Assembly: GCF_014137975.1 (NCBI RefSeq)
Contig: NZ_JACGWZ010000009.1
Coordinates: 1 to 64,000, forward strand
Direction: 5' to 3'
Length of the DNA: 64,000 nucleotides
Source: Halosaccharopolyspora lacisalsi
GTDB lineage: Bacteria > Actinomycetota > Actinomycetes > Mycobacteriales > Pseudonocardiaceae
The position numbers were made by a program, and so were the translations under genes. Shown here in pieces: positions 1 through 20,302 of the stretch. The notes beneath the pieces are model-generated. The model ran no database searches. It saw only the letters and a program-made list of their open reading frames with translations, and was not told the DNA's origin. The first letter of the stretch is position 1, and each line of letters starts with the position of its first letter.

Positions 1-479
1 CGGTGGCCGAGCGCGCCGAACTGCCGCTCGCGTCCACCACGTACTACTTCACCTCGCTGGACGACCTGGTCACCGAGGCCGTCAGGTACGAGGCCGGTGA
101 GGAGCTCGAAGCGGGACGGCGACGCCTGGAGCAGCTCACCGAGGAGCACCGCGGTACCGAGACCGTCACAGAGCTGATGCTGGATCTGCTGCTGGGCGTC
201 CGCTCCCGCGACGGTGGGGTCGAGCCGGTGTTGCTGCGCTACGAGCGGCTGGTCGGCGCGCCCCGGCGCCCCTATCTGGCGCCGCTGATGCGGGAACTCT
301 CCGCGCAGCTCCACGACCTGCTGGCCGAGATCCTCGCGCACTGCGGCATGGAAGTCGGCCGCGACCGCATGTTCGAACTGATCGCGCTGGTCGACGGTAC
401 GGTCGTCAACGCGCTGAACGAGAGCGATCCCGATCCGCGTGGTGCCGCGCGGCGAATGCTGCGTTCCCAACTGGAGTGA
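1..479 (+). CDS. TetR-family regulator, C-terminal part (5' end cut by window start)
   Basis: The frame is open from the first bases. It encodes the end of the helix-turn-helix (AVAERAELPLASTTYYF, where the turn and recognition helix lie) and the whole ligand-binding C-terminal domain. It is identical to residues about 37-194 of the complete regulator at 19718-20302, so this is the mirror copy, truncated only because the window starts here. In the complete copy the gene lies just downstream of an SMR-type exporter gene, which suggests that it regulates that exporter. Confidence 0.85.
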   Translation, partial: VAERAELPLASTTYYFTSLDDLVTEAVRYEAGEELEAGRRRLEQLTEEHRGTETVTELMLDLLLGVRSRDGGVEPVLLRYERLVGAPRRPYLAPLMRELSAQLHDLLAEILAHCGMEVGRDRMFELIALVDGTVVNALNESDPDPRGAARRMLRSQLE

Positions 480-572
480 TCGCGCGCGGAAAGTCTCTCC
501 GCGCTCACGCAACCCCTCTTCGCTTTCCGGCGCGTAGTAGGGGCCGGTAGTGCGGAAAGGGGCCATCGACCG

Positions 573-1117
573 ATGCGGAGTTCAGTACGAGGAATCGTTT
601 CGCGTGTTCGCCAGAGACCAGGCCGCGGCGCTGCGTCGCTCGGCGTACCTGCTGTTGCGGTGACTGGCACCTGGCGAGGATCTCGCTTCAAAACACCTTC
701 ACCAAGCTTTATCGGGCCTGGAAGCGGGTGGACGACACGACGAAGGAGGCCTACGCGCGCAAGGCCCTGATGCGTGCGTGGTTGGACGAACGACGACGTC
801 CCTGGCGCCGGGTGGAGAACCGCCAGCGGGGTGATCCCGGACTCCGGTAGTACCGGGTCCGATCCCGAGGTGGCGGGGCAACGCGCGCGGACGCGGAATC
901 TCGTCGCGCACGCGTTGACCGAGGTGCCGCCACGGAGCGGGCGGTGCTCGTACTGCGCTACTGGGAGGACCTGCCGATCGCCGAAGTGGCGGCGGCGCTG
1001 AGGTGTTCCGAAGGCACGGTCAAGAGCCAGAGCTCGCGCGGGTTGCAGAGCCTGCGGGAGGCGATCGCGCGGTACGACCCCGACCTGGTCGGTGTCGACG
1101 CGGAAGGGACAGCGTGA
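573..1117 (+). pseudogene. SigE-family sigma factor, frameshifted mirror copy
   Basis: This is the counterpart of the intact 180-residue sigma factor at 19085-19627. Compared with that copy it has an extra G after ATGCG, an extra T in CTGTTGCGG, a lost C in CCTGGCGAGG, an extra C in CTCGCTTC, an extra C in CCGCCAGC and a lost C in CACGGAGC, so the frame is broken several times. Further one-base differences lie just upstream (480-570). Most errors are single-base indels in short homopolymers, the pattern expected of uncorrected long-read error at a contig end. Real decay is the alternative. The 3' end, including the SEGTVKSQSSRG region-4 helix, is intact. Confidence 0.85.
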
Positions 1118-1896
1118 TGGACGAGCAGACACTGCGCGCCGGCATGCGCGACGCCCTCGACGACGAACCACCGCTGGGACTCGAGCCCGACCGGATCGCC
1201 GACGAGGCCAGGAGAGCCCAGCGCAGGCGTCGGGCGACCTTCGGCACGGGCGTGGCCACGCTCGCGGTTCTCGCGGGAGCCGCCACGATCCCCGCCGTGA
1301 CGGGACCGCACCACCGGGAGGTGATCCCGGCCGCACCTTCGGTGGTCACCGACGTCCCCACCGAGGGCGCGGTCCCGCCGAAGCTGTCGCAGGACGAACT
1401 CGACCAGCGTCGCCGGATGCTCGAGAACCACGCGGCGAAGGCGGTGCGCAGGGTCGCACCGAAGCTCGACGACGTGAGTCTGGAGCATTCGGGGCTCATC
1501 GGCATCGGCGCGCCCCGGCCCCGCATGCCCCGGAAGCTGAACATGAGCGTGGGTTTCACCGACAGCACCGGGCCGACCGCGGTCTCCGTCGAGGTCGGCA
1601 CCGCGGGCACCTTCGACAAGGCTCCGTCCGAATCCTGCGACGACACGCTGACCTGCGAGGTCGTGAACCGCCCGGACAGGTCCGTGCTGGTTCGCGACGC
1701 GGTGCTGGTGGGGCCGCGGTCCGCCGTGACGGAGTCGGTGTCGCACTACCGCACCGATGGCACCGTCGTCAGGGTCACGGCCTTCACCTACGACCCGGCC
1801 ACGCCTTCAGCGGACGAGGTGCGCGAGAACCCCGCGCTCAGTGAGGAGCAACTCACCGGCCTGGCCACCGACCCGAAGTTCACGTTGGGCAAGTGA
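1117..1896 (+). CDS. Membrane-anchored protein paired with SigE-family sigma factor (mirror copy)
   Basis: This 259-residue protein is identical to the copy at 18306-19085, which carries the fuller annotation. The ATG overlaps the TGA of the upstream sigma gene (TGATG), so the two are translationally coupled. One membrane segment (GVATLAVLAGAATIPAV, residues about 45-61) follows an Arg-rich stretch and separates a cytoplasmic N-terminus from a large outer domain with two cysteines. It may act as an anti-sigma factor by position, but no known anti-sigma fold is recognised. Confidence 0.8.
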   Translation: MDEQTLRAGMRDALDDEPPLGLEPDRIADEARRAQRRRRATFGTGVATLAVLAGAATIPAVTGPHHREVIPAAPSVVTDVPTEGAVPPKLSQDELDQRRRMLENHAAKAVRRVAPKLDDVSLEHSGLIGIGAPRPRMPRKLNMSVGFTDSTGPTAVSVEVGTAGTFDKAPSESCDDTLTCEVVNRPDRSVLVRDAVLVGPRSAVTESVSHYRTDGTVVRVTAFTYDPATPSADEVRENPALSEEQLTGLATDPKFTLGK

Positions 1897-1999
1897 CTCC
1901 GCAACGCCGCGCCCGCGCCCGCGACCCGGGCGCGGCACGGCCGCGTCGGGCGGACCAGGTGCACCGCCCCGAGTGGCACCGCACGTATCCTCGACGGTC

Positions 2000-3433
2000 G
2001 TGACGGACAAGCCCAGCATCCCCAACGTCCTGGCCAACCGCTACGCCTCGCCCGAGCTGGTCGAGCTGTGGTCACCGGCGCACAAGGTCGTTCTGGAGCG
2101 AAGGCTGTGGTTGGCGGTGCTGCGCGCGCAGGCCGACCTCGGCATCGACGTTCCCGAGCAGGCACTGGCCGACTACGAGCGGGTGCTGGAACGGGTCGAC
2201 CTGGACTCCATCGCGGAGCGGGAGCGCGTGACCCGGCACGACGTGAAGGCGCGCATCGAGGAGTTCAACGCGCTGGCCGGTCACGAGCACGTGCACAAGG
2301 GCATGACCTCGCGCGACCTGACGGAGAACGTCGAGCAGTTGCAGGTGCGCCGCAGCCTGGAGCACGTGCGCGACCGCACGGTCGCCGTGCTCGCGCGGCT
2401 GGCCCAGCTCGCCTCCGAACACGGCGAGCTGGTCATGGCGGGACGTTCGCACAACGTCGCGGCCCAGGCCACCACGCTGGGCAAGCGCTTCGCCACCGCC
2501 GCCGACGAACTGCTCGCCGGGTTCCACCGGCTCGAGGAGCTGCTGAGCCGCTACCCGCTGCGCGGCATCAAGGGTCCGGTCGGCACGGCCCAGGACGCGC
2601 TGGACCTCGTCGGAGGCGACCGGGACAAGCTGGCCGAGCTGGAGCGCCGGGTGGCCGGTCACCTCGGTTTCGGCAAGGTGCTGACCAGCGTCGGTCAGGT
2701 GTACCCGCGCTCGCTGGACTACGAGGTGCTGACCACGCTGTCCCAGCTGTCCGCCGCCCCGTCGAGCCTGGCCAAGACGATCCGGCTGATGGCTGGTCAG
2801 GAGCTGGTCACCGAGGGGTTCAAGCCCGGTCAGGTCGGCTCCAGCGCGATGCCGCACAAGATGAACACCCGTTCCTGCGAGCGCGTCAACGGCCTGGCCG
2901 TGGTGCTGCGCGGGCACGTGTCGATGGCGAGCGAGATCGCCGGTGACCAGTGGAATGAGGGCGACGTGTCCTGCTCGGTGGTGCGCCGGGTCGCGCTGCC
3001 GGACGCCTTCTTCGCCTTCGACGGGTTGCTGGAGACCTTCCTGACGGTGCTCGACGAGTTCGGCGCCTACCCCGCCGTGATCTCCCGCGAGCTGGACCGC
3101 TACCTGCCGTTCCTGGCCACCACGAAGGTGCTCATGGCCGCGGTGCGGGCCGGGGTCGGGCGCGAGACCGCGCACGAGGCCATCAAGGAGAACGCCGTCG
3201 CCGTCGCGCTGGACATGCGCGAGCGGGGTATCGAGGGCAACGACCTGCTCGACCGGCTCGCCGCCGACGAGCGACTGCCGCTGGACCGCGACCAGCTCGG
3301 CGCGCTGCTGGACGACCGGCTCGACTTCACCGGAGCGGCCACCGACCAGGTCCGCGACCTCGTCGCCGAGGTCGACAGGATCACCACCCGCCATCCCGAG
3401 GCCGCCGCCTACACCCCCTCCGACATCCTGTGA
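2000..3433 (+). CDS. purB: Adenylosuccinate lyase (mirror copy)
   Basis: The gene encodes 477 residues from GTG 2000 and is identical to the copy at 16769-18202. The enzyme cleaves SAICAR to AICAR and adenylosuccinate to AMP, both with release of fumarate. The superfamily signature SSAMPHKMN is intact, as are the TSRDLTENV and AGRSHNVAAQATT motifs that carry the general acid/base and substrate contacts. The start was chosen because homology begins at the residues after GTG. The longer upstream frame is out-of-frame coding of the preceding gene. Confidence 0.93.
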   Translation: MTDKPSIPNVLANRYASPELVELWSPAHKVVLERRLWLAVLRAQADLGIDVPEQALADYERVLERVDLDSIAERERVTRHDVKARIEEFNALAGHEHVHKGMTSRDLTENVEQLQVRRSLEHVRDRTVAVLARLAQLASEHGELVMAGRSHNVAAQATTLGKRFATAADELLAGFHRLEELLSRYPLRGIKGPVGTAQDALDLVGGDRDKLAELERRVAGHLGFGKVLTSVGQVYPRSLDYEVLTTLSQLSAAPSSLAKTIRLMAGQELVTEGFKPGQVGSSAMPHKMNTRSCERVNGLAVVLRGHVSMASEIAGDQWNEGDVSCSVVRRVALPDAFFAFDGLLETFLTVLDEFGAYPAVISRELDRYLPFLATTKVLMAAVRAGVGRETAHEAIKENAVAVALDMRERGIEGNDLLDRLAADERLPLDRDQLGALLDDRLDFTGAATDQVRDLVAEVDRITTRHPEAAAYTPSDIL

Positions 3434-3456
3434 GACGTCGAGCCCGGTGAGCGTGG

Positions 3457-4461
3457 TCAGCTCCCGTGGCTGGTCCCCTCCGCACCGCGACGGGCGTACA
3501 GGCTGGTCAGCGTGACGGTCGCCAGGATGACCACGATGACCGCCAGGGAGAGCGCGGTGGGAACGGTCGGCACGGCGGGCCAGATTCCGTGGGCCCAGTG
3601 CAGCACCAGCTTCACCCCGATGAACGCGAGGATCAGCGCCAGGCCGTGGTTGAGGTGGACGAGCTTGGCCAGCGCGGTGTGCAGCACGAAGTACAGGGCC
3701 CGCAGCCCCAGCAGGGCGAAGGCGTTGGTGGTGAACACCAGGTAGGGATCCTCGGTGATGCCGTAGACGGCGGGCACGGAGTCGACGGCGAAGACCACGT
3801 CCACGGCGAAGATCGCCACGACCACGACGGTCAGCGGGGTCAGGGCGCGCCGTCGGCCTTCGCGCACCGTCAGCCGGGCGCCGCGGTAGTCGTCGGTGAC
3901 CGGCATCAGCCGGCGCAGCAGCCGCACCGAACGCATCTGCGAGACGTCGTGGTCGAAGGCGCTCCCGCTGAGCGCTTCGTGCAGGACCTTGACGGCGGTG
4001 CCGAACAGGATCGCGCCGAACACCAGAAATGCCCAGGTCCCGGCCTGCAGCAGGGCGGCCCCGGCGGCGATGAAGACGCCGCGCAGCACCAGCGCCCCGA
4101 TGATGCCGTACAGCAGCACGCGCTGCTGCAGCGCCGCCGGGACGGAGAAGCCGGACAGCACGAGCATGAACACGAACAGGTTGTCCACCGACAGCGACTT
4201 CTCCACCACGAACCCGGTGAGGAACTCCAGCGCCTGGCTCGTGCCGAACGTCAGCCACAGGAGCACGCCGAAGATCAGTGGTAGCGCGAGGTAGAACACC
4301 GACCACCCCACGGCCTCGCGCATCGAGACCTCGTGGGGGCGGCGGGTCACCAGGAAGTCGGTGGCCAGCAGGGCGAGCAGGACGGCGATGCTGACCGCCC
4401 ACAACAGCGGCGATCCGATCGATTCCGACGGAGCGGCGAGAGCAGCGGTGGGACCGGGCAC
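3457..4461 (-). CDS. TerC/Alx-family membrane protein, probable Mn2+ exporter (mirror copy)
   Basis: The gene encodes 334 residues from GTG 4461, which has a strong GAGGAGG five bases upstream. An ATG at 4479 has no good ribosome site. The protein is polytopic with the TerC signatures SLSVDNLFVF and VFAVDSVPAVYG, whose acidic residues are thought to bind the metal. It lies directly downstream of a probable yybP-ykoY riboswitch (4486-4590), as many TerC-family manganese exporters do. It is identical to 15741-16745 and convergent with purB. Confidence 0.88.
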   Translation of the reverse strand: MPGPTAALAAPSESIGSPLLWAVSIAVLLALLATDFLVTRRPHEVSMREAVGWSVFYLALPLIFGVLLWLTFGTSQALEFLTGFVVEKSLSVDNLFVFMLVLSGFSVPAALQQRVLLYGIIGALVLRGVFIAAGAALLQAGTWAFLVFGAILFGTAVKVLHEALSGSAFDHDVSQMRSVRLLRRLMPVTDDYRGARLTVREGRRRALTPLTVVVVAIFAVDVVFAVDSVPAVYGITEDPYLVFTTNAFALLGLRALYFVLHTALAKLVHLNHGLALILAFIGVKLVLHWAHGIWPAVPTVPTALSLAVIVVILATVTLTSLYARRGAEGTSHGS

Positions 4462-4485
4462 GGAAGCCTCCTCGAACATCGTTCG

Positions 4486-4590
4486 CGTTCGAGGTCTCCT
4501 TCGCCCACCGCGGACGGCCTCCCGGGGACATCGGCGGATGTCCGGACTGACCGGGTCGACCCGAGGAAGTACTCCCCTCGCACGCGAGTG
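4486..4590 (-). promoter_or_regulatory. yybP-ykoY (Mn2+) riboswitch (mirror copy)
   Basis: Read on the minus strand, this leader contains the conserved first box AGGGGAGTA (in GCGAGGGGAGTACTTCCTCG) and, just before the gene, the second box GGGCGAAGGAGACCTC. A hairpin (GGACATCCGCCGATGTCC) lies between them. These boxes and their order match the manganese-sensing yybP-ykoY class as remembered from actinobacterial TerC leaders. The downstream gene family fits. No covariance search was possible. Confidence 0.7.
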
Positions 4591-4703
4591 TCGCGTATCC
4601 GGCCTGTTCAGCCAACCCGAGCCCGTTGCTCCACCGACGAGCGAGCCCGCACCGCTCGGCGCCAACGGTTGGGCGAGCTCGGTGGTGTGCCCGCGCGGCG
4701 GGA

Positions 4704-5048
4704 TCAGTCGAAGTCGATGTGCACGTGTACGTGGCCCTGGTCGTCTCGGGTCGCGAGCGCGTCGCCGGTGCGTTGTTCACCGGCCACTTCGAGCGTGGCG
4801 GCTCGGCGCTGGTGTCGGAAGTTGCGCCACCAGCGCTTCCGGTCCGGCAGCTGCACCTTGATGACGATGCCGTCGCTGGTGCGGTGGAAGCCGACGACCA
4901 GTGAGAAGTGGCGACCGGACCGGTGCCCCCGGTAGGAGAGGACCGCCATGCCGAGGCGGCCGGTGGTCGAGGGCCAGCGGGAGAACTTTCTCACCAACGG
5001 CATGGCGATCTTGTTGACCCAGCGGCCGGCAGTGGTAACGGTTGTCAT
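4704..5048 (-). CDS. DUF385-like split-barrel protein, possible F420/flavin-dependent reductase (mirror copy)
   Basis: The gene encodes 114 residues starting at ATG 5048 with AGGAG upstream. The order GRLGMAVLSYRGHRSGRHFSLVVGF, then WWRNFRHQ, then AATLEV resembles the deazaflavin-dependent nitroreductase (DUF385) split barrel: a Gly-Arg-x-Ser-Gly turn, then a W-x-N segment, then a strand ending in Glu-Val. It is short for the family (usually 130-150 residues), so cofactor use is uncertain. It is divergent from pobA and identical to 15154-15498. Confidence 0.65.
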   Translation of the reverse strand: MTTVTTAGRWVNKIAMPLVRKFSRWPSTTGRLGMAVLSYRGHRSGRHFSLVVGFHRTSDGIVIKVQLPDRKRWWRNFRHQRRAATLEVAGEQRTGDALATRDDQGHVHVHIDFD

Positions 5049-5271
5049 CGTGACGACTCCTGTCTCGGCAGTGGGTGGTTCGCGTTCGGTCGGGCACCGC
5101 ACGGCCCGCGGTCGCCGGCCGGAGCGCGTCGAAGCGGCACGAGGGTTCGTACTTCCCGCCGGTGCGAAGGTCACCCACGGGACGCGGAGTCACCGAGCCG
5201 AGTCCGGTCACCTCACATGACAGCAACGAGGAAGAAGCCATGCACGTTCCCGGAGAAGAGGGCAGCTCCTG

Positions 5272-6459
5272 ATGTCCACCCGTACCAAAGTCGCCGTCGT
5301 CGGTGCCGGTCCCGCGGGGCTGACGGTGGCGAACCTGCTCAACCACAGCGGAATCGACTGCGTCCTGCTGGAGGAGCGGAGCCGAACCCACATCGAGCAG
5401 CGCCCCAGAGCCGGTTTCATCGAGGAGTGGGCGGTACGCGCGCTGGACGAGCACGGTCTGGCCGACCGGCTGCTGCGCACCGCCGGGACGCAGACCTTCT
5501 CCGAGTTCCGCTTCGACGGGGCCCGCCACTTCTTCCGCTACGGGGACCTCTCGGGCCACCGGCACTTCGTCTACCCGCAGCAGGAGCTCGTGACCGACCT
5601 GGTCGCGACCTACGTCGACGACGGGGGCGGTGACGCGCGCTTCGAGGTCGCCGACGTGCGGCTGCACGACCTGGACACCGACGCCCCGGCCGTCACCTAC
5701 ACCGACCGGGACGGGCGGGAGCAGCGCGTCGACTGCGACTTCGTCGCCGGGTGCGACGGTGCGCAGGGAGTCTCCCGCAAGCACATGCCGCCCGATGCCG
5801 TGGTCGCCCGGCACGACTACGGCATCGGGTGGTTGGCCCTGCTGGCCGAAGCGCCGCCGTCCGCCGACGGCGTCCTGTTCGGCGTCCACCCCCGCGGGTT
5901 CGCCGCGCACATGGCCCGCTCGGACCGGGTCACCCGCTTCTACCTGCAGTGCCCGCCCGGGGACACCGAGGACTCCTGGCCCGACGAGCGGGTGTGGCGG
6001 GAGCTGCAGGCCCGGCTCGCGGTCCCCGGCGGGGAGATCACCGAGGGCGAGCTGATCGAGAAGCGCGTCCTGGACATGCACAACTACGTGGTGGAGCCCA
6101 TGTCGCACGGCCGGCTGCATCTGGCGGGCGAGGCGGCGCACCTGGTGGCTCCCATCGCCGCCAAGGGCATGAACCTCGCCCTGCACGACGCGCTGCTGCT
6201 GGCCGATGCGTTCGGGGCGCACTACCGGGGCGATGACGCGAAGCTGGACGGGTACTCGGACACCTGCCTGAGCCGGGTGTGGCAGTACCAGGAGTTCTCC
6301 CAGTGGCTCTCCGACGTCTTCCACAGCTCCACGCAGGATCCGCCGTCCGATCCGTTCCGGGCGCGGCTCGCGCAGGCGCGGTTGCGCAGGCTGCTCGGCT
6401 CCGAGGCCACGGCGACGGCGCTGGCCGAGGTCTACATCGGCAAGCGCGCCGACTTCTGA
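5272..6459 (+). CDS. pobA: 4-hydroxybenzoate 3-monooxygenase-like flavoprotein (mirror copy)
   Basis: The gene encodes 395 residues, the usual PobA length, and is identical to 13743-14930, where it is described in full. It has a Rossmann GAGPAGL near residue 11, the class A CDGAQG motif near 160, and LAGEAAHLVAPIAAKGMN near residue 285. The last has Glu where the family normally has Asp. Confidence 0.85.
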   Translation: MSTRTKVAVVGAGPAGLTVANLLNHSGIDCVLLEERSRTHIEQRPRAGFIEEWAVRALDEHGLADRLLRTAGTQTFSEFRFDGARHFFRYGDLSGHRHFVYPQQELVTDLVATYVDDGGGDARFEVADVRLHDLDTDAPAVTYTDRDGREQRVDCDFVAGCDGAQGVSRKHMPPDAVVARHDYGIGWLALLAEAPPSADGVLFGVHPRGFAAHMARSDRVTRFYLQCPPGDTEDSWPDERVWRELQARLAVPGGEITEGELIEKRVLDMHNYVVEPMSHGRLHLAGEAAHLVAPIAAKGMNLALHDALLLADAFGAHYRGDDAKLDGYSDTCLSRVWQYQEFSQWLSDVFHSSTQDPPSDPFRARLAQARLRRLLGSEATATALAEVYIGKRADF

Positions 6460-6475
6460 GGGACGGCCACGTCCC
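6460..6475. terminator. Short hairpin between convergent pobA and tenA-family genes (mirror copy)
   Basis: The stem GGGACG, loop GCCA and stem CGTCCC start within the pobA stop codon, between convergent genes. There is no T-run. It is a plausible but weak terminator, repeated at 13727-13742. Confidence 0.4.
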
Positions 6476-6497
6476 TCCGGCATCCCGCGAGCCCCCG

Positions 6498-7148
6498 CTA
6501 CGACCAGTGGGCGTTGAAGAAGTCCAGTTCGTAGCGGGTGGCGAGCTGGAACAGCCGCAGGCACCGGGCCTGCTCGCGCTCGTCCAGGGTGGCGCCGACG
6601 CGGTCGAGCTCGGCGCACAGCCACCGGACCCACTCGTTGAAGGCCGCGTTGTTGTGCAGCGTGATCCACTCGCTGTGCAGGAAGTTGTACGGCAACCGCT
6701 CGGGTGCCCGAGCGGCCCACTGCTGGTAACTCCACTCGGCGACCACCAGCACCGTCAGGACGTCGGCGTAGCTGCCGCGCGTGTTCATGTCGGCCATCAG
6801 CTCGCGGAACGCCTCGGTCGCCTCGTGCCGCTCGGGAACGCTGCGCTCGGCCGCCGGCACTTCCAGCTCGTCGAAGGCCCGCTGGAAGTACGTGTTCTCG
6901 TCACTGGTGACCACGGTGATGCTGCCCGCGATCGCCAGCCGTGACGGGTAGGCGTCGGCCCTGGCCAGCGCCGCCCCGAGCAGGGCGAGGAACTGGTCGA
7001 CGAACTGGTAGTCCTGCACCAGGTAGGAGCGCATTCTCGAGTTCGGCATCGAGCCGTCGAACAGCGCGTCGGTGAAGGGATGGTGGACCACGGCGGTCCA
7101 GTCCGGTTCGCTGCGGGAACGCAGCCATTCGGTGAAGCTCCCGGTCAC
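6498..7148 (-). CDS. TenA-family protein of the Cys-less (TenA_E) type (mirror copy)
   Basis: The gene encodes 216 residues from GTG 7148, preceded by AAAGGA. A longer frame from 7187 lacks a ribosome site. The all-helical TenA fold is indicated by HPFTDALFDGSMP, YLVQDYQFVDQFLALLG and the C-terminal HSEWITLHNN. The catalytic Cys of classical thiaminase II is replaced within VVAEWSYQQW, typical of the TenA_E branch, so thiamin-salvage activity is uncertain. It is identical to 13054-13704 and divergent from purC. Confidence 0.85.
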   Translation of the reverse strand: MTGSFTEWLRSRSEPDWTAVVHHPFTDALFDGSMPNSRMRSYLVQDYQFVDQFLALLGAALARADAYPSRLAIAGSITVVTSDENTYFQRAFDELEVPAAERSVPERHEATEAFRELMADMNTRGSYADVLTVLVVAEWSYQQWAARAPERLPYNFLHSEWITLHNNAAFNEWVRWLCAELDRVGATLDEREQARCLRLFQLATRYELDFFNAHWS

Positions 7149-7244
7149 TGTGGGGTCCTTTCGAGCCACGGTCGTCGTGTGCACCATGCCGCATCGGCGG
7201 CCCGCCCGGCGCGGTGAAGCACCCTATGCGGCAAAATTCGAGCC

Positions 7245-8138
7245 GTGGTCACCCTCGCCGAGTACCCCCTGATCGCTGCGGGCAAGGTCCGACAGCTGCA
7301 CGCCGTGGACGACGAGCACCTGCTGATGGTGGCTTCCGATCGCATCTCCGCCTACGACCACGTGCTGGCCACCCCCATTCCGGACAAGGGCCGGGTGCTC
7401 ACGGCGATGAGCGTGTTCTGGTTCGAGCTGTTGTCCTCCGAAGTGGACAACCACCTGGTCTCCGCCGACGATCCGCGCGTCCCGGACGAGGTGCGCGGCC
7501 GCGCGCTGCTCGTGCGCAGGCTGGAGATGCTGCCGGTGGAGTGCGTCGCGCGCGGCTACCTCACCGGATCCGGGCTGATCGACTACCGCGCCACCGGCAC
7601 TGTCTGCGGCGTGGAGCTGCCGAACGGACTCACCGAGTCCTCCCGGCTGCCAGAACCGATCTTCACACCGGCGACGAAGGCCGAGCTGGGCGAGCACGAC
7701 GAGAACGTCAGTTTCGCCGCGGTCGCCCGCACCGTGGGTGACGAGCGCGCCGAGCAGCTGCGCGAGCTGACGCTGCGGCTCTACCGGCGAGCGGCCGAGC
7801 ACGCCGAGAGCAGGGGCGTCATCCTCGCCGACACCAAGTTCGAGTTCGGCCTCTCCGAGCGGGGCGACCTCGTGCTGGGGGACGAGGTGCTCACTCCCGA
7901 CTCCTCGCGGTACTGGCCCGCCGACGGCTACGAGCCCGGCCGGGTTCAGCCGTCCTTCGACAAGCAGTACGTCCGGGACTGGCTGACCTCGCCCGCCTCC
8001 GGCTGGGACAGGTCCTCGGAGCAGCCCCCACCGGAGCTTCCCGACGAGGTGGTGGCCAACACCCGCGCCCGCTACGTCGAAGCCTACGAGCGCATCACCG
8101 GTCGCGATCTGGCTGACTGGCCCGGCCCCGGCGCGTGA
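7245..8138 (+). CDS. purC: SAICAR synthase (mirror copy)
   Basis: The gene encodes 297 residues from GTG 7245 and is identical to 12064-12957. The enzyme joins CAIR and aspartate with ATP to give SAICAR, the substrate of PurB, whose gene lies nearby in the same arm. It is recognised by GKVRQL, the [12 protein letters not shown] box near residue 28, [12 protein letters not shown] near 100, the [10 protein letters not shown] box near 190 and the [12 protein letters not shown] segment. Confidence 0.94.
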
Positions 8139-8240
8139 GTCCCGCTCGTCATCCGTCCGGGTGGATTACGGCGGGCGTTGACCTCGATCGGGTCCGATCG
8201 TTACCGCTCCGTCGAGCGCACGACACTCGAATCAGGCCTA

Positions 8241-9029: not shown

Positions 9030-9165
9030 CCAGGTATTTTCCCGTTCATGTCGATATGAAAACCCCTTCATGGTGCTTTCAGGGGTACTTCATCGGCAGC
9101 ACCGAAGCTGGTTGGTGTCGGGGCGCCGAGACGGTGGTGCCCCGCTACGGCGGGAAGGTGCAATC

Positions 9166-9597: not shown

Positions 9598-9616
9598 CCG
9601 ATGTTCGCCGGTGAAC

Positions 9617-9653
9617 GGAGGCGTTCTGGCGGTGTGAGTGCCAAAACGCCTCC
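9617..9653. terminator. Bidirectional terminator hairpin (mirror copy)
   Basis: The stem GGAGGCGTT and TGGC pairs with GCCA and AACGCCTCC around a 9-base loop with one internal mismatch. It sits between the convergent repeat-protein and metallo-beta-lactamase genes. Confidence 0.75.
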
Positions 9654-9682
9654 GCTCGCCCCCGGGAAGTTCCGGTGAGCCG

Positions 9683-10321: not shown

Positions 10322-10329
10322 AACTCTCC

Positions 10330-10585: not shown

Positions 10586-10604
10586 GTTCACCGGCGAACA
10601 TCGG

Positions 10605-11036: not shown

Positions 11037-11172
11037 GATTGCACCTTCCCGCCGTAGCGGGGCACCACCGTCTCGGCGCCCCGACACCAACCAGCTTCGG
11101 TGCTGCCGATGAAGTACCCCTGAAAGCACCATGAAGGGGTTTTCATATCGACATGAACGGGAAAATACCTGG

Positions 11173-11961: not shown

Positions 11962-12063
11962 TAGGCCTGATTCGAGTGTCGTGCGCTCGACGGAGCGGTA
12001 ACGATCGGACCCGATCGAGGTCAACGCCCGCCGTAATCCACCCGGACGGATGACGAGCGGGAC

Positions 12064-12957: not shown

Positions 12958-13053
12958 GGCTCGAATTTTGCCGCATAGGGTGCTTCACCGCGCCGGGCGG
13001 GCCGCCGATGCGGCATGGTGCACACGACGACCGTGGCTCGAAAGGACCCCACA

Positions 13054-13704
13054 GTGACCGGGAGCTTCACCGAATGGCTGCGTTCCCGCAGCGAACCGGA
13101 CTGGACCGCCGTGGTCCACCATCCCTTCACCGACGCGCTGTTCGACGGCTCGATGCCGAACTCGAGAATGCGCTCCTACCTGGTGCAGGACTACCAGTTC
13201 GTCGACCAGTTCCTCGCCCTGCTCGGGGCGGCGCTGGCCAGGGCCGACGCCTACCCGTCACGGCTGGCGATCGCGGGCAGCATCACCGTGGTCACCAGTG
13301 ACGAGAACACGTACTTCCAGCGGGCCTTCGACGAGCTGGAAGTGCCGGCGGCCGAGCGCAGCGTTCCCGAGCGGCACGAGGCGACCGAGGCGTTCCGCGA
13401 GCTGATGGCCGACATGAACACGCGCGGCAGCTACGCCGACGTCCTGACGGTGCTGGTGGTCGCCGAGTGGAGTTACCAGCAGTGGGCCGCTCGGGCACCC
13501 GAGCGGTTGCCGTACAACTTCCTGCACAGCGAGTGGATCACGCTGCACAACAACGCGGCCTTCAACGAGTGGGTCCGGTGGCTGTGCGCCGAGCTCGACC
13601 GCGTCGGCGCCACCCTGGACGAGCGCGAGCAGGCCCGGTGCCTGCGGCTGTTCCAGCTCGCCACCCGCTACGAACTGGACTTCTTCAACGCCCACTGGTC
13701 GTAG
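13054..13704 (+). CDS. TenA-family protein of the Cys-less (TenA_E) type
   Basis: This 216-residue all-alpha TenA/heme-oxygenase-fold protein starts at GTG 13054 after AAAGGA. An upstream in-frame ATG at 13015 lacks a ribosome site and would add unconserved residues. Conserved landmarks are the N-terminal HPFTDALFDG, QDYQFVDQF near residue 47, the helix VLVVAEWSYQQWA near 138, and HSEWITLHNNAAFNEWV near 162. Classical TenA hydrolyses aminopyrimidines with a Cys in the helix that here reads VVAEWS, so the Cys is absent and a nearby Glu is kept. That pattern fits the TenA_E branch, whose reaction is less well defined. No other thiamin gene is nearby. Confidence 0.85.
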   Translation: MTGSFTEWLRSRSEPDWTAVVHHPFTDALFDGSMPNSRMRSYLVQDYQFVDQFLALLGAALARADAYPSRLAIAGSITVVTSDENTYFQRAFDELEVPAAERSVPERHEATEAFRELMADMNTRGSYADVLTVLVVAEWSYQQWAARAPERLPYNFLHSEWITLHNNAAFNEWVRWLCAELDRVGATLDEREQARCLRLFQLATRYELDFFNAHWS

Positions 13705-13742
13705 CGGGGGCTCGCGGGATGCCGGAGGGACGTGGCCGTCCC

Positions 13743-14930
13743 TCAGAAGTCGGCGCGCTTGCCGATGTAGACCTCGGCCAGCGCCGTCGCCGTGGCCTCG
13801 GAGCCGAGCAGCCTGCGCAACCGCGCCTGCGCGAGCCGCGCCCGGAACGGATCGGACGGCGGATCCTGCGTGGAGCTGTGGAAGACGTCGGAGAGCCACT
13901 GGGAGAACTCCTGGTACTGCCACACCCGGCTCAGGCAGGTGTCCGAGTACCCGTCCAGCTTCGCGTCATCGCCCCGGTAGTGCGCCCCGAACGCATCGGC
14001 CAGCAGCAGCGCGTCGTGCAGGGCGAGGTTCATGCCCTTGGCGGCGATGGGAGCCACCAGGTGCGCCGCCTCGCCCGCCAGATGCAGCCGGCCGTGCGAC
14101 ATGGGCTCCACCACGTAGTTGTGCATGTCCAGGACGCGCTTCTCGATCAGCTCGCCCTCGGTGATCTCCCCGCCGGGGACCGCGAGCCGGGCCTGCAGCT
14201 CCCGCCACACCCGCTCGTCGGGCCAGGAGTCCTCGGTGTCCCCGGGCGGGCACTGCAGGTAGAAGCGGGTGACCCGGTCCGAGCGGGCCATGTGCGCGGC
14301 GAACCCGCGGGGGTGGACGCCGAACAGGACGCCGTCGGCGGACGGCGGCGCTTCGGCCAGCAGGGCCAACCACCCGATGCCGTAGTCGTGCCGGGCGACC
14401 ACGGCATCGGGCGGCATGTGCTTGCGGGAGACTCCCTGCGCACCGTCGCACCCGGCGACGAAGTCGCAGTCGACGCGCTGCTCCCGCCCGTCCCGGTCGG
14501 TGTAGGTGACGGCCGGGGCGTCGGTGTCCAGGTCGTGCAGCCGCACGTCGGCGACCTCGAAGCGCGCGTCACCGCCCCCGTCGTCGACGTAGGTCGCGAC
14601 CAGGTCGGTCACGAGCTCCTGCTGCGGGTAGACGAAGTGCCGGTGGCCCGAGAGGTCCCCGTAGCGGAAGAAGTGGCGGGCCCCGTCGAAGCGGAACTCG
14701 GAGAAGGTCTGCGTCCCGGCGGTGCGCAGCAGCCGGTCGGCCAGACCGTGCTCGTCCAGCGCGCGTACCGCCCACTCCTCGATGAAACCGGCTCTGGGGC
14801 GCTGCTCGATGTGGGTTCGGCTCCGCTCCTCCAGCAGGACGCAGTCGATTCCGCTGTGGTTGAGCAGGTTCGCCACCGTCAGCCCCGCGGGACCGGCACC
14901 GACGACGGCGACTTTGGTACGGGTGGACAT
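13743..14930 (-). CDS. pobA: 4-hydroxybenzoate 3-monooxygenase-like flavoprotein
   Basis: This 395-residue class A flavin monooxygenase is predicted to convert 4-hydroxybenzoate to protocatechuate with NAD(P)H and O2. The N-terminal FAD Rossmann motif is VAVVGAGPAGLTVANLL (residues 7-23). Residues about 40-50 (HIEQRPRAGFIEE) match the family's R-A-G segment that contacts FAD. CDGAQG near 160 is the DG motif, which binds both FAD and NADPH. LHLAGEAAHLVAPIAAKGMNLALHDA near 280-305 is the GD motif region, but with Glu for the usual Asp. Length and colinearity favour PobA over other hydroxylases. No protocatechuate-cleavage or PcaU/PobR-type regulator genes are adjacent, so substrate assignment rests on homology alone. 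It is divergent from the DUF385-like gene with about 220 bp between. Confidence 0.85.
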   Translation of the reverse strand: MSTRTKVAVVGAGPAGLTVANLLNHSGIDCVLLEERSRTHIEQRPRAGFIEEWAVRALDEHGLADRLLRTAGTQTFSEFRFDGARHFFRYGDLSGHRHFVYPQQELVTDLVATYVDDGGGDARFEVADVRLHDLDTDAPAVTYTDRDGREQRVDCDFVAGCDGAQGVSRKHMPPDAVVARHDYGIGWLALLAEAPPSADGVLFGVHPRGFAAHMARSDRVTRFYLQCPPGDTEDSWPDERVWRELQARLAVPGGEITEGELIEKRVLDMHNYVVEPMSHGRLHLAGEAAHLVAPIAAKGMNLALHDALLLADAFGAHYRGDDAKLDGYSDTCLSRVWQYQEFSQWLSDVFHSSTQDPPSDPFRARLAQARLRRLLGSEATATALAEVYIGKRADF

Positions 14931-15153
14931 CAGGAGCTGCCCTCTTCTCCGGGAACGTGCATGGCTTCTTCCTCGTTGCTGTCATGTGAGGTGACCGGAC
15001 TCGGCTCGGTGACTCCGCGTCCCGTGGGTGACCTTCGCACCGGCGGGAAGTACGAACCCTCGTGCCGCTTCGACGCGCTCCGGCCGGCGACCGCGGGCCG
15101 TGCGGTGCCCGACCGAACGCGAACCACCCACTGCCGAGACAGGAGTCGTCACG

Positions 15154-15498
15154 ATGACAACCGTTACCACTGCCGGCCGCTGGGTCAACAAGATCGCCAT
15201 GCCGTTGGTGAGAAAGTTCTCCCGCTGGCCCTCGACCACCGGCCGCCTCGGCATGGCGGTCCTCTCCTACCGGGGGCACCGGTCCGGTCGCCACTTCTCA
15301 CTGGTCGTCGGCTTCCACCGCACCAGCGACGGCATCGTCATCAAGGTGCAGCTGCCGGACCGGAAGCGCTGGTGGCGCAACTTCCGACACCAGCGCCGAG
15401 CCGCCACGCTCGAAGTGGCCGGTGAACAACGCACCGGCGACGCGCTCGCGACCCGAGACGACCAGGGCCACGTACACGTGCACATCGACTTCGACTGA
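15154..15498 (+). CDS. DUF385-like split-barrel protein, possible F420/flavin-dependent reductase
   Basis: This 114-residue soluble protein starts at ATG 15154 with AGGAG upstream. Its pattern (N-terminal amphipathic helix with MPLVRKFSRWPST, then LSYRGHRSGRHFSLVVGF, then IKVQLPDRKRWWRNFRHQ, then AATLEV) follows the DUF385 split-barrel family of F420-dependent nitroreductase/quinone reductases. In that family the G-R-x-S-G turn and the W-x-N-x-x segment lie at the cofactor cleft. The protein ends soon after the last strand, with DQGHVHVHIDFD as a short His/Asp-rich tail. No partner gene is co-directional upstream; TerC and its leader follow downstream. Confidence 0.65.
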   Translation: MTTVTTAGRWVNKIAMPLVRKFSRWPSTTGRLGMAVLSYRGHRSGRHFSLVVGFHRTSDGIVIKVQLPDRKRWWRNFRHQRRAATLEVAGEQRTGDALATRDDQGHVHVHIDFD

Positions 15499-15611
15499 TC
15501 CCGCCGCGCGGGCACACCACCGAGCTCGCCCAACCGTTGGCGCCGAGCGGTGCGGGCTCGCTCGTCGGTGGAGCAACGGGCTCGGGTTGGCTGAACAGGC
15601 CGGATACGCGA

Positions 15612-15716
15612 CACTCGCGTGCGAGGGGAGTACTTCCTCGGGTCGACCCGGTCAGTCCGGACATCCGCCGATGTCCCCGGGAGGCCGTCCGCGGTGGGCG
15701 AAGGAGACCTCGAACG
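15612..15716 (+). promoter_or_regulatory. yybP-ykoY (Mn2+) riboswitch
   Basis: The leader upstream of the TerC-family gene reads AGGGGAGTACTTCCTCGGG in its 5' part, then a GGACATCCGCCGATGTCC hairpin, and GGGCGAAGGAGACCTC in its 3' part. In the yybP-ykoY class these conserved stretches form the two L-shaped loops that clamp Mn2+. It ends about 25 bases before the GTG start, so control of translation or antitermination is possible. Assignment is by motif recall only. Confidence 0.7.
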
Positions 15717-15740
15717 CGAACGATGTTCGAGGAGGCTTCC

Positions 15741-16745
15741 GTGCCCGGTCCCACCGCTGCTCTCGCCGCTCCGTCGGAATCGATCGGATCGCCGCTGTTG
15801 TGGGCGGTCAGCATCGCCGTCCTGCTCGCCCTGCTGGCCACCGACTTCCTGGTGACCCGCCGCCCCCACGAGGTCTCGATGCGCGAGGCCGTGGGGTGGT
15901 CGGTGTTCTACCTCGCGCTACCACTGATCTTCGGCGTGCTCCTGTGGCTGACGTTCGGCACGAGCCAGGCGCTGGAGTTCCTCACCGGGTTCGTGGTGGA
16001 GAAGTCGCTGTCGGTGGACAACCTGTTCGTGTTCATGCTCGTGCTGTCCGGCTTCTCCGTCCCGGCGGCGCTGCAGCAGCGCGTGCTGCTGTACGGCATC
16101 ATCGGGGCGCTGGTGCTGCGCGGCGTCTTCATCGCCGCCGGGGCCGCCCTGCTGCAGGCCGGGACCTGGGCATTTCTGGTGTTCGGCGCGATCCTGTTCG
16201 GCACCGCCGTCAAGGTCCTGCACGAAGCGCTCAGCGGGAGCGCCTTCGACCACGACGTCTCGCAGATGCGTTCGGTGCGGCTGCTGCGCCGGCTGATGCC
16301 GGTCACCGACGACTACCGCGGCGCCCGGCTGACGGTGCGCGAAGGCCGACGGCGCGCCCTGACCCCGCTGACCGTCGTGGTCGTGGCGATCTTCGCCGTG
16401 GACGTGGTCTTCGCCGTCGACTCCGTGCCCGCCGTCTACGGCATCACCGAGGATCCCTACCTGGTGTTCACCACCAACGCCTTCGCCCTGCTGGGGCTGC
16501 GGGCCCTGTACTTCGTGCTGCACACCGCGCTGGCCAAGCTCGTCCACCTCAACCACGGCCTGGCGCTGATCCTCGCGTTCATCGGGGTGAAGCTGGTGCT
16601 GCACTGGGCCCACGGAATCTGGCCCGCCGTGCCGACCGTTCCCACCGCGCTCTCCCTGGCGGTCATCGTGGTCATCCTGGCGACCGTCACGCTGACCAGC
16701 CTGTACGCCCGTCGCGGTGCGGAGGGGACCAGCCACGGGAGCTGA
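15741..16745 (+). CDS. TerC/Alx-family membrane protein, probable Mn2+ exporter
   Basis: This 334-residue polytopic membrane protein has about eight hydrophobic segments. The two TerC hallmark segments are EKSLSVDNLFVFML (residues about 75-88) and VVFAVDSVPAVYGITEDPYLVFTTNAFALLGLRALYF (about 215-250), where the membrane Asp residues are proposed to coordinate metal. E. coli Alx and B. subtilis YkoY/MeeF of this family export manganese, in the latter case to metalate exoenzymes. The upstream Mn2+ riboswitch supports the same role here. The GTG 15741 start has GAGGAGG at ideal spacing. The 3' end is convergent with purB, with 23 bp between stops and no clear terminator. Confidence 0.88.
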   Translation: MPGPTAALAAPSESIGSPLLWAVSIAVLLALLATDFLVTRRPHEVSMREAVGWSVFYLALPLIFGVLLWLTFGTSQALEFLTGFVVEKSLSVDNLFVFMLVLSGFSVPAALQQRVLLYGIIGALVLRGVFIAAGAALLQAGTWAFLVFGAILFGTAVKVLHEALSGSAFDHDVSQMRSVRLLRRLMPVTDDYRGARLTVREGRRRALTPLTVVVVAIFAVDVVFAVDSVPAVYGITEDPYLVFTTNAFALLGLRALYFVLHTALAKLVHLNHGLALILAFIGVKLVLHWAHGIWPAVPTVPTALSLAVIVVILATVTLTSLYARRGAEGTSHGS

Positions 16746-16768
16746 CCACGCTCACCGGGCTCGACGTC

Positions 16769-18202
16769 TCACAGGATGTCGGAGGGGGTGTAGGCGGCGG
16801 CCTCGGGATGGCGGGTGGTGATCCTGTCGACCTCGGCGACGAGGTCGCGGACCTGGTCGGTGGCCGCTCCGGTGAAGTCGAGCCGGTCGTCCAGCAGCGC
16901 GCCGAGCTGGTCGCGGTCCAGCGGCAGTCGCTCGTCGGCGGCGAGCCGGTCGAGCAGGTCGTTGCCCTCGATACCCCGCTCGCGCATGTCCAGCGCGACG
17001 GCGACGGCGTTCTCCTTGATGGCCTCGTGCGCGGTCTCGCGCCCGACCCCGGCCCGCACCGCGGCCATGAGCACCTTCGTGGTGGCCAGGAACGGCAGGT
17101 AGCGGTCCAGCTCGCGGGAGATCACGGCGGGGTAGGCGCCGAACTCGTCGAGCACCGTCAGGAAGGTCTCCAGCAACCCGTCGAAGGCGAAGAAGGCGTC
17201 CGGCAGCGCGACCCGGCGCACCACCGAGCAGGACACGTCGCCCTCATTCCACTGGTCACCGGCGATCTCGCTCGCCATCGACACGTGCCCGCGCAGCACC
17301 ACGGCCAGGCCGTTGACGCGCTCGCAGGAACGGGTGTTCATCTTGTGCGGCATCGCGCTGGAGCCGACCTGACCGGGCTTGAACCCCTCGGTGACCAGCT
17401 CCTGACCAGCCATCAGCCGGATCGTCTTGGCCAGGCTCGACGGGGCGGCGGACAGCTGGGACAGCGTGGTCAGCACCTCGTAGTCCAGCGAGCGCGGGTA
17501 CACCTGACCGACGCTGGTCAGCACCTTGCCGAAACCGAGGTGACCGGCCACCCGGCGCTCCAGCTCGGCCAGCTTGTCCCGGTCGCCTCCGACGAGGTCC
17601 AGCGCGTCCTGGGCCGTGCCGACCGGACCCTTGATGCCGCGCAGCGGGTAGCGGCTCAGCAGCTCCTCGAGCCGGTGGAACCCGGCGAGCAGTTCGTCGG
17701 CGGCGGTGGCGAAGCGCTTGCCCAGCGTGGTGGCCTGGGCCGCGACGTTGTGCGAACGTCCCGCCATGACCAGCTCGCCGTGTTCGGAGGCGAGCTGGGC
17801 CAGCCGCGCGAGCACGGCGACCGTGCGGTCGCGCACGTGCTCCAGGCTGCGGCGCACCTGCAACTGCTCGACGTTCTCCGTCAGGTCGCGCGAGGTCATG
17901 CCCTTGTGCACGTGCTCGTGACCGGCCAGCGCGTTGAACTCCTCGATGCGCGCCTTCACGTCGTGCCGGGTCACGCGCTCCCGCTCCGCGATGGAGTCCA
18001 GGTCGACCCGTTCCAGCACCCGCTCGTAGTCGGCCAGTGCCTGCTCGGGAACGTCGATGCCGAGGTCGGCCTGCGCGCGCAGCACCGCCAACCACAGCCT
18101 TCGCTCCAGAACGACCTTGTGCGCCGGTGACCACAGCTCGACCAGCTCGGGCGAGGCGTAGCGGTTGGCCAGGACGTTGGGGATGCTGGGCTTGTCCGTC
18201 AC
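16769..18202 (-). CDS. purB: Adenylosuccinate lyase
   Basis: This 477-residue enzyme of the fumarase/aspartase superfamily acts twice in purine synthesis (SAICAR to AICAR; adenylosuccinate to AMP). Helical domain 1 contains HDVKARIEEFN near residue 75 and GMTSRDLTENV near 95. Domain 2 contains MAGRSHNVAAQATT near 145 and the flexible signature loop GSSAMPHKMN near 278, followed by VLRGHVSMASEIAGDQWNEGDVSCS, which carries the catalytic region. The C-terminal domain ends in TPSDIL. GTG 18202 was chosen because family similarity begins with IPNVLANRYASPEL. About 100 bp of GC-rich DNA separates it from the sigma-partner gene. Confidence 0.93.
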   Translation of the reverse strand: MTDKPSIPNVLANRYASPELVELWSPAHKVVLERRLWLAVLRAQADLGIDVPEQALADYERVLERVDLDSIAERERVTRHDVKARIEEFNALAGHEHVHKGMTSRDLTENVEQLQVRRSLEHVRDRTVAVLARLAQLASEHGELVMAGRSHNVAAQATTLGKRFATAADELLAGFHRLEELLSRYPLRGIKGPVGTAQDALDLVGGDRDKLAELERRVAGHLGFGKVLTSVGQVYPRSLDYEVLTTLSQLSAAPSSLAKTIRLMAGQELVTEGFKPGQVGSSAMPHKMNTRSCERVNGLAVVLRGHVSMASEIAGDQWNEGDVSCSVVRRVALPDAFFAFDGLLETFLTVLDEFGAYPAVISRELDRYLPFLATTKVLMAAVRAGVGRETAHEAIKENAVAVALDMRERGIEGNDLLDRLAADERLPLDRDQLGALLDDRLDFTGAATDQVRDLVAEVDRITTRHPEAAAYTPSDIL

Positions 18203-18305
18203 GACCGTCGAGGATACGTGCGGTGCCACTCGGGGCGGTGCACCTGGTCCGCCCGACGCGGCCGTGCCGCGCCCGGGTCGCGGGCGCGGGCGCGGCGTTG
18301 CGGAG

Positions 18306-19085
18306 TCACTTGCCCAACGTGAACTTCGGGTCGGTGGCCAGGCCGGTGAGTTGCTCCTCACTGAGCGCGGGGTTCTCGCGCACCTCGTCCGCTGAAGGCG
18401 TGGCCGGGTCGTAGGTGAAGGCCGTGACCCTGACGACGGTGCCATCGGTGCGGTAGTGCGACACCGACTCCGTCACGGCGGACCGCGGCCCCACCAGCAC
18501 CGCGTCGCGAACCAGCACGGACCTGTCCGGGCGGTTCACGACCTCGCAGGTCAGCGTGTCGTCGCAGGATTCGGACGGAGCCTTGTCGAAGGTGCCCGCG
18601 GTGCCGACCTCGACGGAGACCGCGGTCGGCCCGGTGCTGTCGGTGAAACCCACGCTCATGTTCAGCTTCCGGGGCATGCGGGGCCGGGGCGCGCCGATGC
18701 CGATGAGCCCCGAATGCTCCAGACTCACGTCGTCGAGCTTCGGTGCGACCCTGCGCACCGCCTTCGCCGCGTGGTTCTCGAGCATCCGGCGACGCTGGTC
18801 GAGTTCGTCCTGCGACAGCTTCGGCGGGACCGCGCCCTCGGTGGGGACGTCGGTGACCACCGAAGGTGCGGCCGGGATCACCTCCCGGTGGTGCGGTCCC
18901 GTCACGGCGGGGATCGTGGCGGCTCCCGCGAGAACCGCGAGCGTGGCCACGCCCGTGCCGAAGGTCGCCCGACGCCTGCGCTGGGCTCTCCTGGCCTCGT
19001 CGGCGATCCGGTCGGGCTCGAGTCCCAGCGGTGGTTCGTCGTCGAGGGCGTCGCGCATGCCGGCGCGCAGTGTCTGCTCGTCCAT
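18306..19085 (-). CDS. Membrane-anchored partner of SigE-family sigma factor
   Basis: This 259-residue protein is translationally coupled to the sigma gene (its ATG shares the A of that gene's TGA). The cytoplasmic part is residues 1-42 and Arg-rich at its end (ARRAQRRRRATFG). A single membrane helix spans about 45-61 and an extracytoplasmic domain of about 195 residues follows. That domain has a CDDTLTCEV cysteine pair, which may form a disulfide. The layout matches membrane proteins encoded downstream of actinobacterial SigE-family sigma factors, which often act as anti-sigma factors or signal receptors. No ZAS zinc motif (HxxxCxxC) is present, so a classical zinc anti-sigma role is not supported. 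A paralogous cassette with the same layout lies at 20869-22058. Confidence 0.8.
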   Translation of the reverse strand: MDEQTLRAGMRDALDDEPPLGLEPDRIADEARRAQRRRRATFGTGVATLAVLAGAATIPAVTGPHHREVIPAAPSVVTDVPTEGAVPPKLSQDELDQRRRMLENHAAKAVRRVAPKLDDVSLEHSGLIGIGAPRPRMPRKLNMSVGFTDSTGPTAVSVEVGTAGTFDKAPSESCDDTLTCEVVNRPDRSVLVRDAVLVGPRSAVTESVSHYRTDGTVVRVTAFTYDPATPSADEVRENPALSEEQLTGLATDPKFTLGK

Positions 19086-19627
19086 CACGCTGTCCCTTCC
19101 GCGTCGACACCGACCAGGTCGGGGTCGTACCGCGCGATCGCCTCCCGCAGGCTCTGCAACCCGCGCGAGCTCTGGCTCTTGACCGTGCCTTCGGAACACC
19201 TCAGCGCCGCCGCCACTTCGGCGATCGGCAGGTCCTCCCAGTAGCGCAGTACGAGCACCGCCCGCTGCCGTGGCGGCACCTCGGTCAACGCGTGCGCGAC
19301 GAGATTCCGCGTCCGCGCGCGTTGCCCCGCCACCTCGGGATCGGACCCGGTACTACCGGAGTCCGGGATCACCCCGCTGCGGTTCTCCACCCGGCGCCAG
19401 GGACGTCGTCGTTCGTCCAACCACGCACGCATCAGGGCCTTGCGCGCGTAGGCCTCCTTCGTCGTGTCGTCCACCCGCTTCCAGGCCCGATAAAGCTTGG
19501 TGAAGGTGTTTTGAACGAGATCCTCGGCCAGGTGCCAGTCACCGCACAGCAGGTACGCCGAGCGACGCAGCGCCGCGGCCTGGTCTCTGGCGAACACGCG
19601 AAACGATTCCTCGTACTGAACTCGCAT
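19085..19627 (-). CDS. SigE-family ECF sigma factor (intact copy)
   Basis: This 180-residue sigma-70 family protein is of the actinobacterial SigE-like ECF group. Region 2 covers about 7-75 with RRSAYLLCGDWHLAEDLVQNTFTKLY; region 2.4 includes DERRRPWRR. Region 4 covers about 115-168: VPPRQRAVLVLRYWEDLPIAEVAAALRCSEGTVKSQSSRGLQSLRE, a complete helix-turn-helix. It directs RNA polymerase to a regulon that presumably includes its own operon. The start is ATG 19627; upstream is a short 90-bp gap to the TetR gene stop. A paralogue at 21540-22058 shares the GDWH and RPWRR motifs. The left-arm copy of this gene is frameshifted. Confidence 0.9.
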   Translation of the reverse strand: MRVQYEESFRVFARDQAAALRRSAYLLCGDWHLAEDLVQNTFTKLYRAWKRVDDTTKEAYARKALMRAWLDERRRPWRRVENRSGVIPDSGSTGSDPEVAGQRARTRNLVAHALTEVPPRQRAVLVLRYWEDLPIAEVAAALRCSEGTVKSQSSRGLQSLREAIARYDPDLVGVDAEGTA

Positions 19628-19717
19628 CGGTCGATGCCCCTTTCCGCACTACCGCCCCCTACTACGCGCCGGAAGCGAAGAGGGTTGCGTGAGCGCGGAG
19701 AGACTTTCCGCGCGCGA

Positions 19718-20302
19718 TCACTCCAGTTGGGAACGCAGCATTCGCCGCGCGGCACCACGCGGATCGGGATCGCTCTCGTTCAGCGCGTTGACGACCGTAC
19801 CGTCGACCAGCGCGATCAGTTCGAACATGCGGTCGCGGCCGACTTCCATGCCGCAGTGCGCGAGGATCTCGGCCAGCAGGTCGTGGAGCTGCGCGGAGAG
19901 TTCCCGCATCAGCGGCGCCAGATAGGGGCGCCGGGGCGCGCCGACCAGCCGCTCGTAGCGCAGCAACACCGGCTCGACCCCACCGTCGCGGGAGCGGACG
20001 CCCAGCAGCAGATCCAGCATCAGCTCTGTGACGGTCTCGGTACCGCGGTGCTCCTCGGTGAGCTGCTCCAGGCGTCGCCGTCCCGCTTCGAGCTCCTCAC
20101 CGGCCTCGTACCTGACGGCCTCGGTGACCAGGTCGTCCAGCGAGGTGAAGTAGTACGTGGTGGACGCGAGCGGCAGTTCGGCGCGCTCGGCCACCGCACG
20201 GTGGCGGATGGCGTCGAAGCCGCCCTCCGCCAACAGTTGCGCCGCGGCCCGCACCAACGTCTGCCGCCGCCGCTCGCCCTTCGGAGTACTGGCCGCCGTC
20301 AT
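19718..20302 (-). CDS. TetR-family regulator downstream of an SMR exporter
   Basis: This 194-residue protein starts at ATG 20302 (ATG 20323 is possible but lacks a ribosome site). The N-terminal TetR helix-turn-helix includes RRQTLVRAAAQLLAEGGFDAIRHRAVAERAELPLASTTYYFTSLDDLVTEAV (residues about 13-65), with the usual YYF at the end of the recognition helix. The C-terminal domain is mostly helical with R-x-Y-E-R and FELIALVDGTVVNAL. It lies 50 bp downstream of the SMR gene on the same strand, so it is probably an autoregulated local repressor. A candidate palindromic operator lies upstream of the SMR gene at 20739-20756. The right arm of the inverted repeat ends inside this gene at 20196. Confidence 0.88.
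   Translation of the reverse strand: MTAASTPKGERRRQTLVRAAAQLLAEGGFDAIRHRAVAERAELPLASTTYYFTSLDDLVTEAVRYEAGEELEAGRRRLEQLTEEHRGTETVTELMLDLLLGVRSRDGGVEPVLLRYERLVGAPRRPYLAPLMRELSAQLHDLLAEILAHCGMEVGRDRMFELIALVDGTVVNALNESDPDPRGAARRMLRSQLE

Follow-up and report, generated by a model that had tools for sequence, protein, structure and literature searches.

A fold-back inverted repeat carrying purB and purC at a contig start of Halosaccharopolyspora lacisalsi, probably a snap-back chimera

The 64,000-nucleotide stretch analyzed here (the window) is the beginning of contig NZ_JACGWZ010000009.1 of the Halosaccharopolyspora lacisalsi assembly (hereafter C9), and its first 20 kb form a giant inverted repeat in which the purine genes purB and purC each occur twice. 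Two arms of ~9.7 kb, at 1..9696 and 10506..20196, flank a loop of 809 bp (9697..10505). The right arm is joined to unique DNA and is judged to be the genuine copy. On its minus strand lie purC, encoding SAICAR synthetase (12064..12957; PF01259, E 1.9e-79; mirror copy at 7245-8138 on the plus strand), the adenylosuccinate lyase-like gene purB (16769..18445; PF00206 and PF10397; mirror copy at 1757-3433 on the plus strand), a gene for a sigma-70 family factor (19085..19627), and a TetR gene of 201 aa (19718..20323) that crosses position 20196. The last two are intact in the right arm; in the left arm, the sigma factor gene bears indels and the TetR gene is truncated by the contig start. The left arm, which begins at C9 base 1, is judged to be a superfluous mirror copy. 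The loop holds most of a gene for a 212-aa MBL-fold hydrolase (9683..10321, minus strand; PF13483, E 9.1e-24), which is the arm's native neighbour and crosses 9696/9697, together with the 3' end of another TetR-like regulator, represented by its last 58 codons (10330..10505, minus strand). There is no strong second copy of the loop, its one further match in the genome being 62 bp at 77% identity.

A preliminary description of this DNA had pointed to a near-perfect inverted repeat with an 809-bp loop, and the mirror is indeed present in the assembly. Window positions 1-9696 and 10506-20196 are reverse complements with 99.897% identity over 9,698 aligned columns, and a chance origin is excluded. 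That description placed identical mirror copies, with coordinates summing to 20202, from about position 1000 inward, which turned out to be conservative: when positions are paired so that i + j = 20202, the copies show no difference between 936 and 9696 (8,761 bp), and the outer part (1-935) is mirrored as well, its register being shifted by single-base indels. As had also been noted, the left arm starts where the contig does, window base 1 being base 1 of C9 (G000:C9:1), a contig of 123,627 bp in an assembly of 5.37 Mb and 16 contigs. The mirror reaches that base, and the right arm runs on into unique DNA past 20196. Since 20196 merely mirrors the contig's first base, it is not a biological boundary.

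The 10 differences between the arms are all found in a single 423-bp stretch of the left arm (513..935), less than 1 kb from the contig end; 9 of them are single-base indels and one is a substitution. Noisy long reads typically contain indels of this kind, and the stretch resembles uncorrected long-read errors. When the two copies were aligned to the corresponding locus of Halopolyspora (L028), the right copy gave 2 gap columns and the left copy 9. Against relative L027, the right copy scored better yet had more gap columns (30 vs. 21), and the alignments to Actinopolyspora (L091) and to L032 were too short for judging one copy against the other. True divergence of the left arm was considered as a source of the differences and rejected, since 9 of the 10 are single-base indels confined to 423 bp and the right copy fits Halopolyspora better.

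The two junctions of the loop differ in character. We examined gene order in 22 named relatives, drawn from 80 loci kept and including Halopolyspora and Actinopolyspora. In all 22, the arm genes lie on the 3' side of the MBL gene, as they do at the left junction, and the native order is MBL, purC, purB. Among family members G001-G024, the MBL gene and purC were found within ~5 kb of each other on one contig in 15, and inspection by eye showed them to be convergent in 15 of 15; the other 9 members were not informative. In Halopolyspora and Actinopolyspora, a full-length TetR gene precedes the MBL gene and extends upstream, in frame, beyond the part retained in the loop, and homology to the window ends 2 bases past 10505. 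These are the only two of the 22 relatives in which TetR adjoins MBL; several of the remaining relatives have their best match to the TetR end at least ~100 kb away from MBL or on another contig. Since the relatives' MBL-arm order matches the left junction and TetR continues past 10505, 9696/9697 is native and 10505/10506 is a non-native, gene-cutting junction; with the left junction being native sequence, only 10505/10506 is suspect. The earlier observation that a TetR gene is truncated exactly at the arm boundary therefore applies to 10505/10506 and not to 9696/9697, given the upstream extension of the full-length homologs. Short complementarity at this turn (10505..10506) amounts to ~2 bp (CG) in common with the native TetR gene, as judged from two relatives only.

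A search of the assembly for the missing start of the truncated TetR gene returned, besides the loop copy, only weak and scattered matches, and the gap was not closed. The best of these (70-74% over 152-172 bp) lies inside contig C3 and is probably a paralog. purC has two matches in this genome, compared with one in 54 of the 59 other family members searched. The Halopolyspora region beyond the arm (Z') has no counterpart in the H. lacisalsi genome except for three short matches and a further 94 bp at the margin of the arm-side gene, and therefore cannot indicate where the left arm would lead.

Another fold-back, a double one, lies at the start of contig C1 in this assembly (G000:C1:1-32205). 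Here, the contig sequence reads X-A-A'-A-Y, with three copies of a ~10.3-kb unit A, the middle one inverted, between native flanks X and Y. The inverted repeats span 1039-21897, with a turn near 11468, and 11454-32205, with a turn near 21830. The two direct copies of A align over 10,306 columns at 99.9%, and overall the copies are 99.7-99.9% alike, turn cores included. Stretches of Halopolyspora and Actinopolyspora (34 and 40 kb) contain X-A-Y once and in colinear order, and in Halopolyspora a single alignment passes straight through the native counterpart of the first C1 turn. That turn sits on a native short hairpin with the stem GCCGC/GCGGC and a 10-nt loop; at the second turn, ~4 bp are shared and ~120 bp are unmirrored. 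In the comparison of the first two copies in C1, 11 of the 12 differing columns outside the turn core fall within ~1.1 kb of the first turn, and this low consensus quality suggests that few molecules supported it. C9 shows just A'-A, without the TetR-side flank, and its topology, A'-loop-A-Y, is the C1 form truncated by the contig start.

The extent of such structures was assessed with a scan for inverted repeats lying within a single piece of sequence, with a minimum length of 300 bp and a minimum identity of 90%. It covered 24 pieces totaling 1,298,553 bases of the 5.37 Mb: C8, C9, and C11-C16 in full; the first 446 kb of C1, 80 kb each of C7 and C10, and 20 kb each of C2-C6; and the final 12-20 kb of C1-C7 and C10. 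Qualifying repeats were found solely at the starts of C1 and C9. Several contig ends overlap at 100% identity without having been merged, namely C2/C5 (5,780 bp), C8/C9 (3,722 bp), C6/C8 (2,501 bp), and C12/C14 (2,626 bp). The same is true of C13/C15, and such overlaps would join several contigs. Separately, the two ends of C10 (1-101391) overlap each other by 2,790 bp at 100%, and on this basis C10 is probably a circular plasmid of ~98.6 kb.

A mirror that ends with the contig, one native junction paired with a non-native one beside an unmirrored stretch, and recurrence at the start of C1 together support an artefact, as do the clustering of differences near the first C1 turn and near the C9 contig end and the unmerged overlaps among contig ends. 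Judging from the assembled sequence, we consider it most likely that snap-back chimeric molecules were built into the starts of these contigs and that no real gene duplication underlies the repeat. The preliminary description had favoured a fold-back read or an artefact of assembly where the contig ends, and this idea gains support. A plain missed-adapter hairpin read fits poorly with a one-sided loop of 809 bp, a feature that does fit a snap-back or strand-switch chimera. In such a scheme, a chimeric molecule arising in library preparation or in amplification, or else a chimeric read, would have traversed the arm, the MBL gene, and TetR. The 3' end would have departed from its template and annealed to the opposite strand by a few bases, producing an inverted join and an unmirrored stretch. 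In C9, the switch would have taken place inside TetR at 10505, with restart on the opposite strand at the inner end of the arm, so that 809 bp were skipped; the arm would then have been copied back, and the assembler would have begun C9 with the chimeric molecule. The real genome would accordingly hold the arm just once, running TetR - MBL - purC - purB - window 20197 onward, with the remainder of TetR in an assembly gap. We infer that the switch occurred in vitro, and favour this timing because two events of like size are seen at two contig starts and nowhere else that was examined.

Geometry alone does not decide the matter, since a real tandem inversion duplication or yeast origin-dependent inverted repeat amplification (ODIRA) would be expected to look alike. 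Tandem inversion duplication (TID), with Salmonella as an example, is a known class of bacterial rearrangement with this geometry, in which a replicating 3' end snaps back at short complementarity and copies the arm in reverse. On this account, the cells themselves would carry two recent snap-back inverted duplications, A-A'-A in C1, where the structure is complete, and A'-A in C9, truncated by the contig start, with purB and purC doubled ~91 kb from dnaA. Several observations lean this way and weigh against a chimera. C1 keeps both of its native flanks, X and Y; its turns use a native hairpin (GCCGC/GCGGC) in one case and ~4 bp of microhomology in the other, as a real TID would; and in C9 the identity of the arms extends all the way to the turn, which shows no excess of errors. 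Hairpin self-priming, the apparent style of the first C1 turn, is argued to be no major route in amplification chimeras (PMC1855051), and snap-back inverted triplications are an established class in yeast (PMC4689423). The surroundings of the right arm bear on the question too. Here, window 29.6-36.6 kb is found past the outer end of the arm; in Halopolyspora and Actinopolyspora, it is on the TetR side of MBL (in Saccharopolyspora spinosa, it is window 37.3-44 kb that lies on the TetR side instead), so that an artefact also requires a lineage inversion with a break at ~23243-23595, and there may be room for a real rearrangement. By comparison with Halopolyspora and Actinopolyspora, the TetR-MBL-purC-purB segment has the opposite orientation to the DNA on its right (window 29.6-36.6 kb; in Halopolyspora, from 23605). 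Since the break falls between two apparently complete open reading frames (22193-23242 and 23596-24726), we take it to be a lineage inversion. The placement of 29.6-36.6 kb on the TetR side would also permit the right arm to be read as an inverted insertion into the ancestral order; this was rated lower, since 10505/10506 cuts a gene and the ~23243-23595 break is intergenic. Other points speak against a duplication within cells. It needs two independent events of like unit length (~10.3 kb for one, at least 10.5 kb for the other), each placed at the start of a contig, and the 1.30 Mb scanned held no further case. The consensus errors near the first C1 turn suggest few supporting reads, and the cut breaks a TetR gene whose lost part is matched just weakly elsewhere in the assembly. 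We therefore regard a true duplication as unlikely.

Two further explanations were weighed against the snap-back chimera. A plain missed-adapter read, in which both strands of one insert are read in succession and left unsplit, would account for units near 10 kb, for the forward-reverse-forward order of C1, and for the position at contig starts. Such a read mirrors right to its axis, without a loop. The unmirrored 809 bp of C9 and ~120 bp at the second C1 turn depart from this symmetry, and the first C1 turn coincides with a native hairpin, not with the end of a random insert. Missed SMRTbell adapters are a described cause of palindromic reads in unamplified data (PMC6218980), but since the loops here are one-sided, this explanation is not favoured and appears very unlikely. 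In an actinomycete, a near-perfect palindrome of this size at the end of a contig also brings to mind a natural end of a linear replicon, whether a hairpin telomere or terminal inverted repeats that have fused. However, dnaA lies on the same contig (C9:101563) at a distance of ~91 kb, relatives carry the locus inside contigs and not at their ends, a closed hairpin would lack the 809-bp unique loop, and the other end of C9 overlaps C8. A replicon end was rejected on the first three of these grounds and strikes us as extremely improbable.

If the arms are a chimera, claims of doubled purB, purC, sigma factor, or TetR genes drawn from this assembly would be wrong; for now, each pair should be counted once. 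The approach may be of use elsewhere, as the native gene order of relatives identifies the false junction of a palindrome without recourse to reads. Two fold-backs within one assembly suggest a data set that is prone to them. Were the copies real, they would represent a rare snap-back amplification in a bacterium with both turn points in hand, and the TID process would have been caught in an unselected actinomycete genome with its purine genes doubled.

Two smaller features lie within the arms. An 18-bp tandem repeat (12.4 copies, 98% matches) is present at 9360-9582 (mirror 10620-10842), inside arm open reading frames. At 9605-9662 (mirror 10540-10597) is a member of a dispersed hairpin family with the invariant apical motif GGCGGTGNGAGTGCC. 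Exact GGCGGTGNGAGTGCC sites number 33 in the genome (26 forward, 7 reverse), compared with 0 or 1 per genome in 40 relatives. The stems co-vary between copies, as in GAACGGACCGTT/AACGGTCCGTTC, GAACGCGTCGTT/AACGACGCGTTC, and GGAGGCGTT/AACGCCTCC, and across ten stem positions of 32 distinct copies, 301 of 320 cells were paired, compared with 267 on average and 284 at most in 1,000 shuffles. An Rfam search of the window gave no match at the gathering threshold.

Among known systems, a close likeness to these contig starts is found in the palindromic long-read chimeras of amplified DNA, which show inverted joins with a deletion or loop, short complementarity, multiple switches per molecule, and damaged contiguity (PMC6218980, PMC1855051, PMC13265396). 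In the data presented in PMC6218980, two amplified Arabidopsis PacBio sets contained 47.8% and 43.6% palindromic reads. An amplified gorilla set had a share of 11.8%, and a control without amplification had 0.5%, for which missed adapters were partly responsible; up to 15 palindromes per read were recorded. Of 475 amplification chimeras, 406 (85%) were inverted, and at least 2 bp of complementarity accompanied 76.8% of chimeras (PMC1855051); reads with multiple inversions are described in PMC13265396 as impairing assembly. The H. lacisalsi structures differ in being known from finished contig sequence alone and in the first C1 turn, which falls on a hairpin, a route held to be minor in PMC1855051. 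Missed SMRTbell adapter reads share with C1 the forward-reverse(-forward) units of ~10 kb, but would not be expected to leave loops on one side only (809 and ~120 bp here) or to turn on a native hairpin. Finally, TID and the inverted triplication of yeast ODIRA (for the latter, PMC4689423) resemble C1 in the A-A'-A order, the retention of both flanks, and turns at short inverted repeats or microhomology, whereas the present case consists of two like-sized events, known from contig sequence and located solely at contig starts in the DNA scanned.

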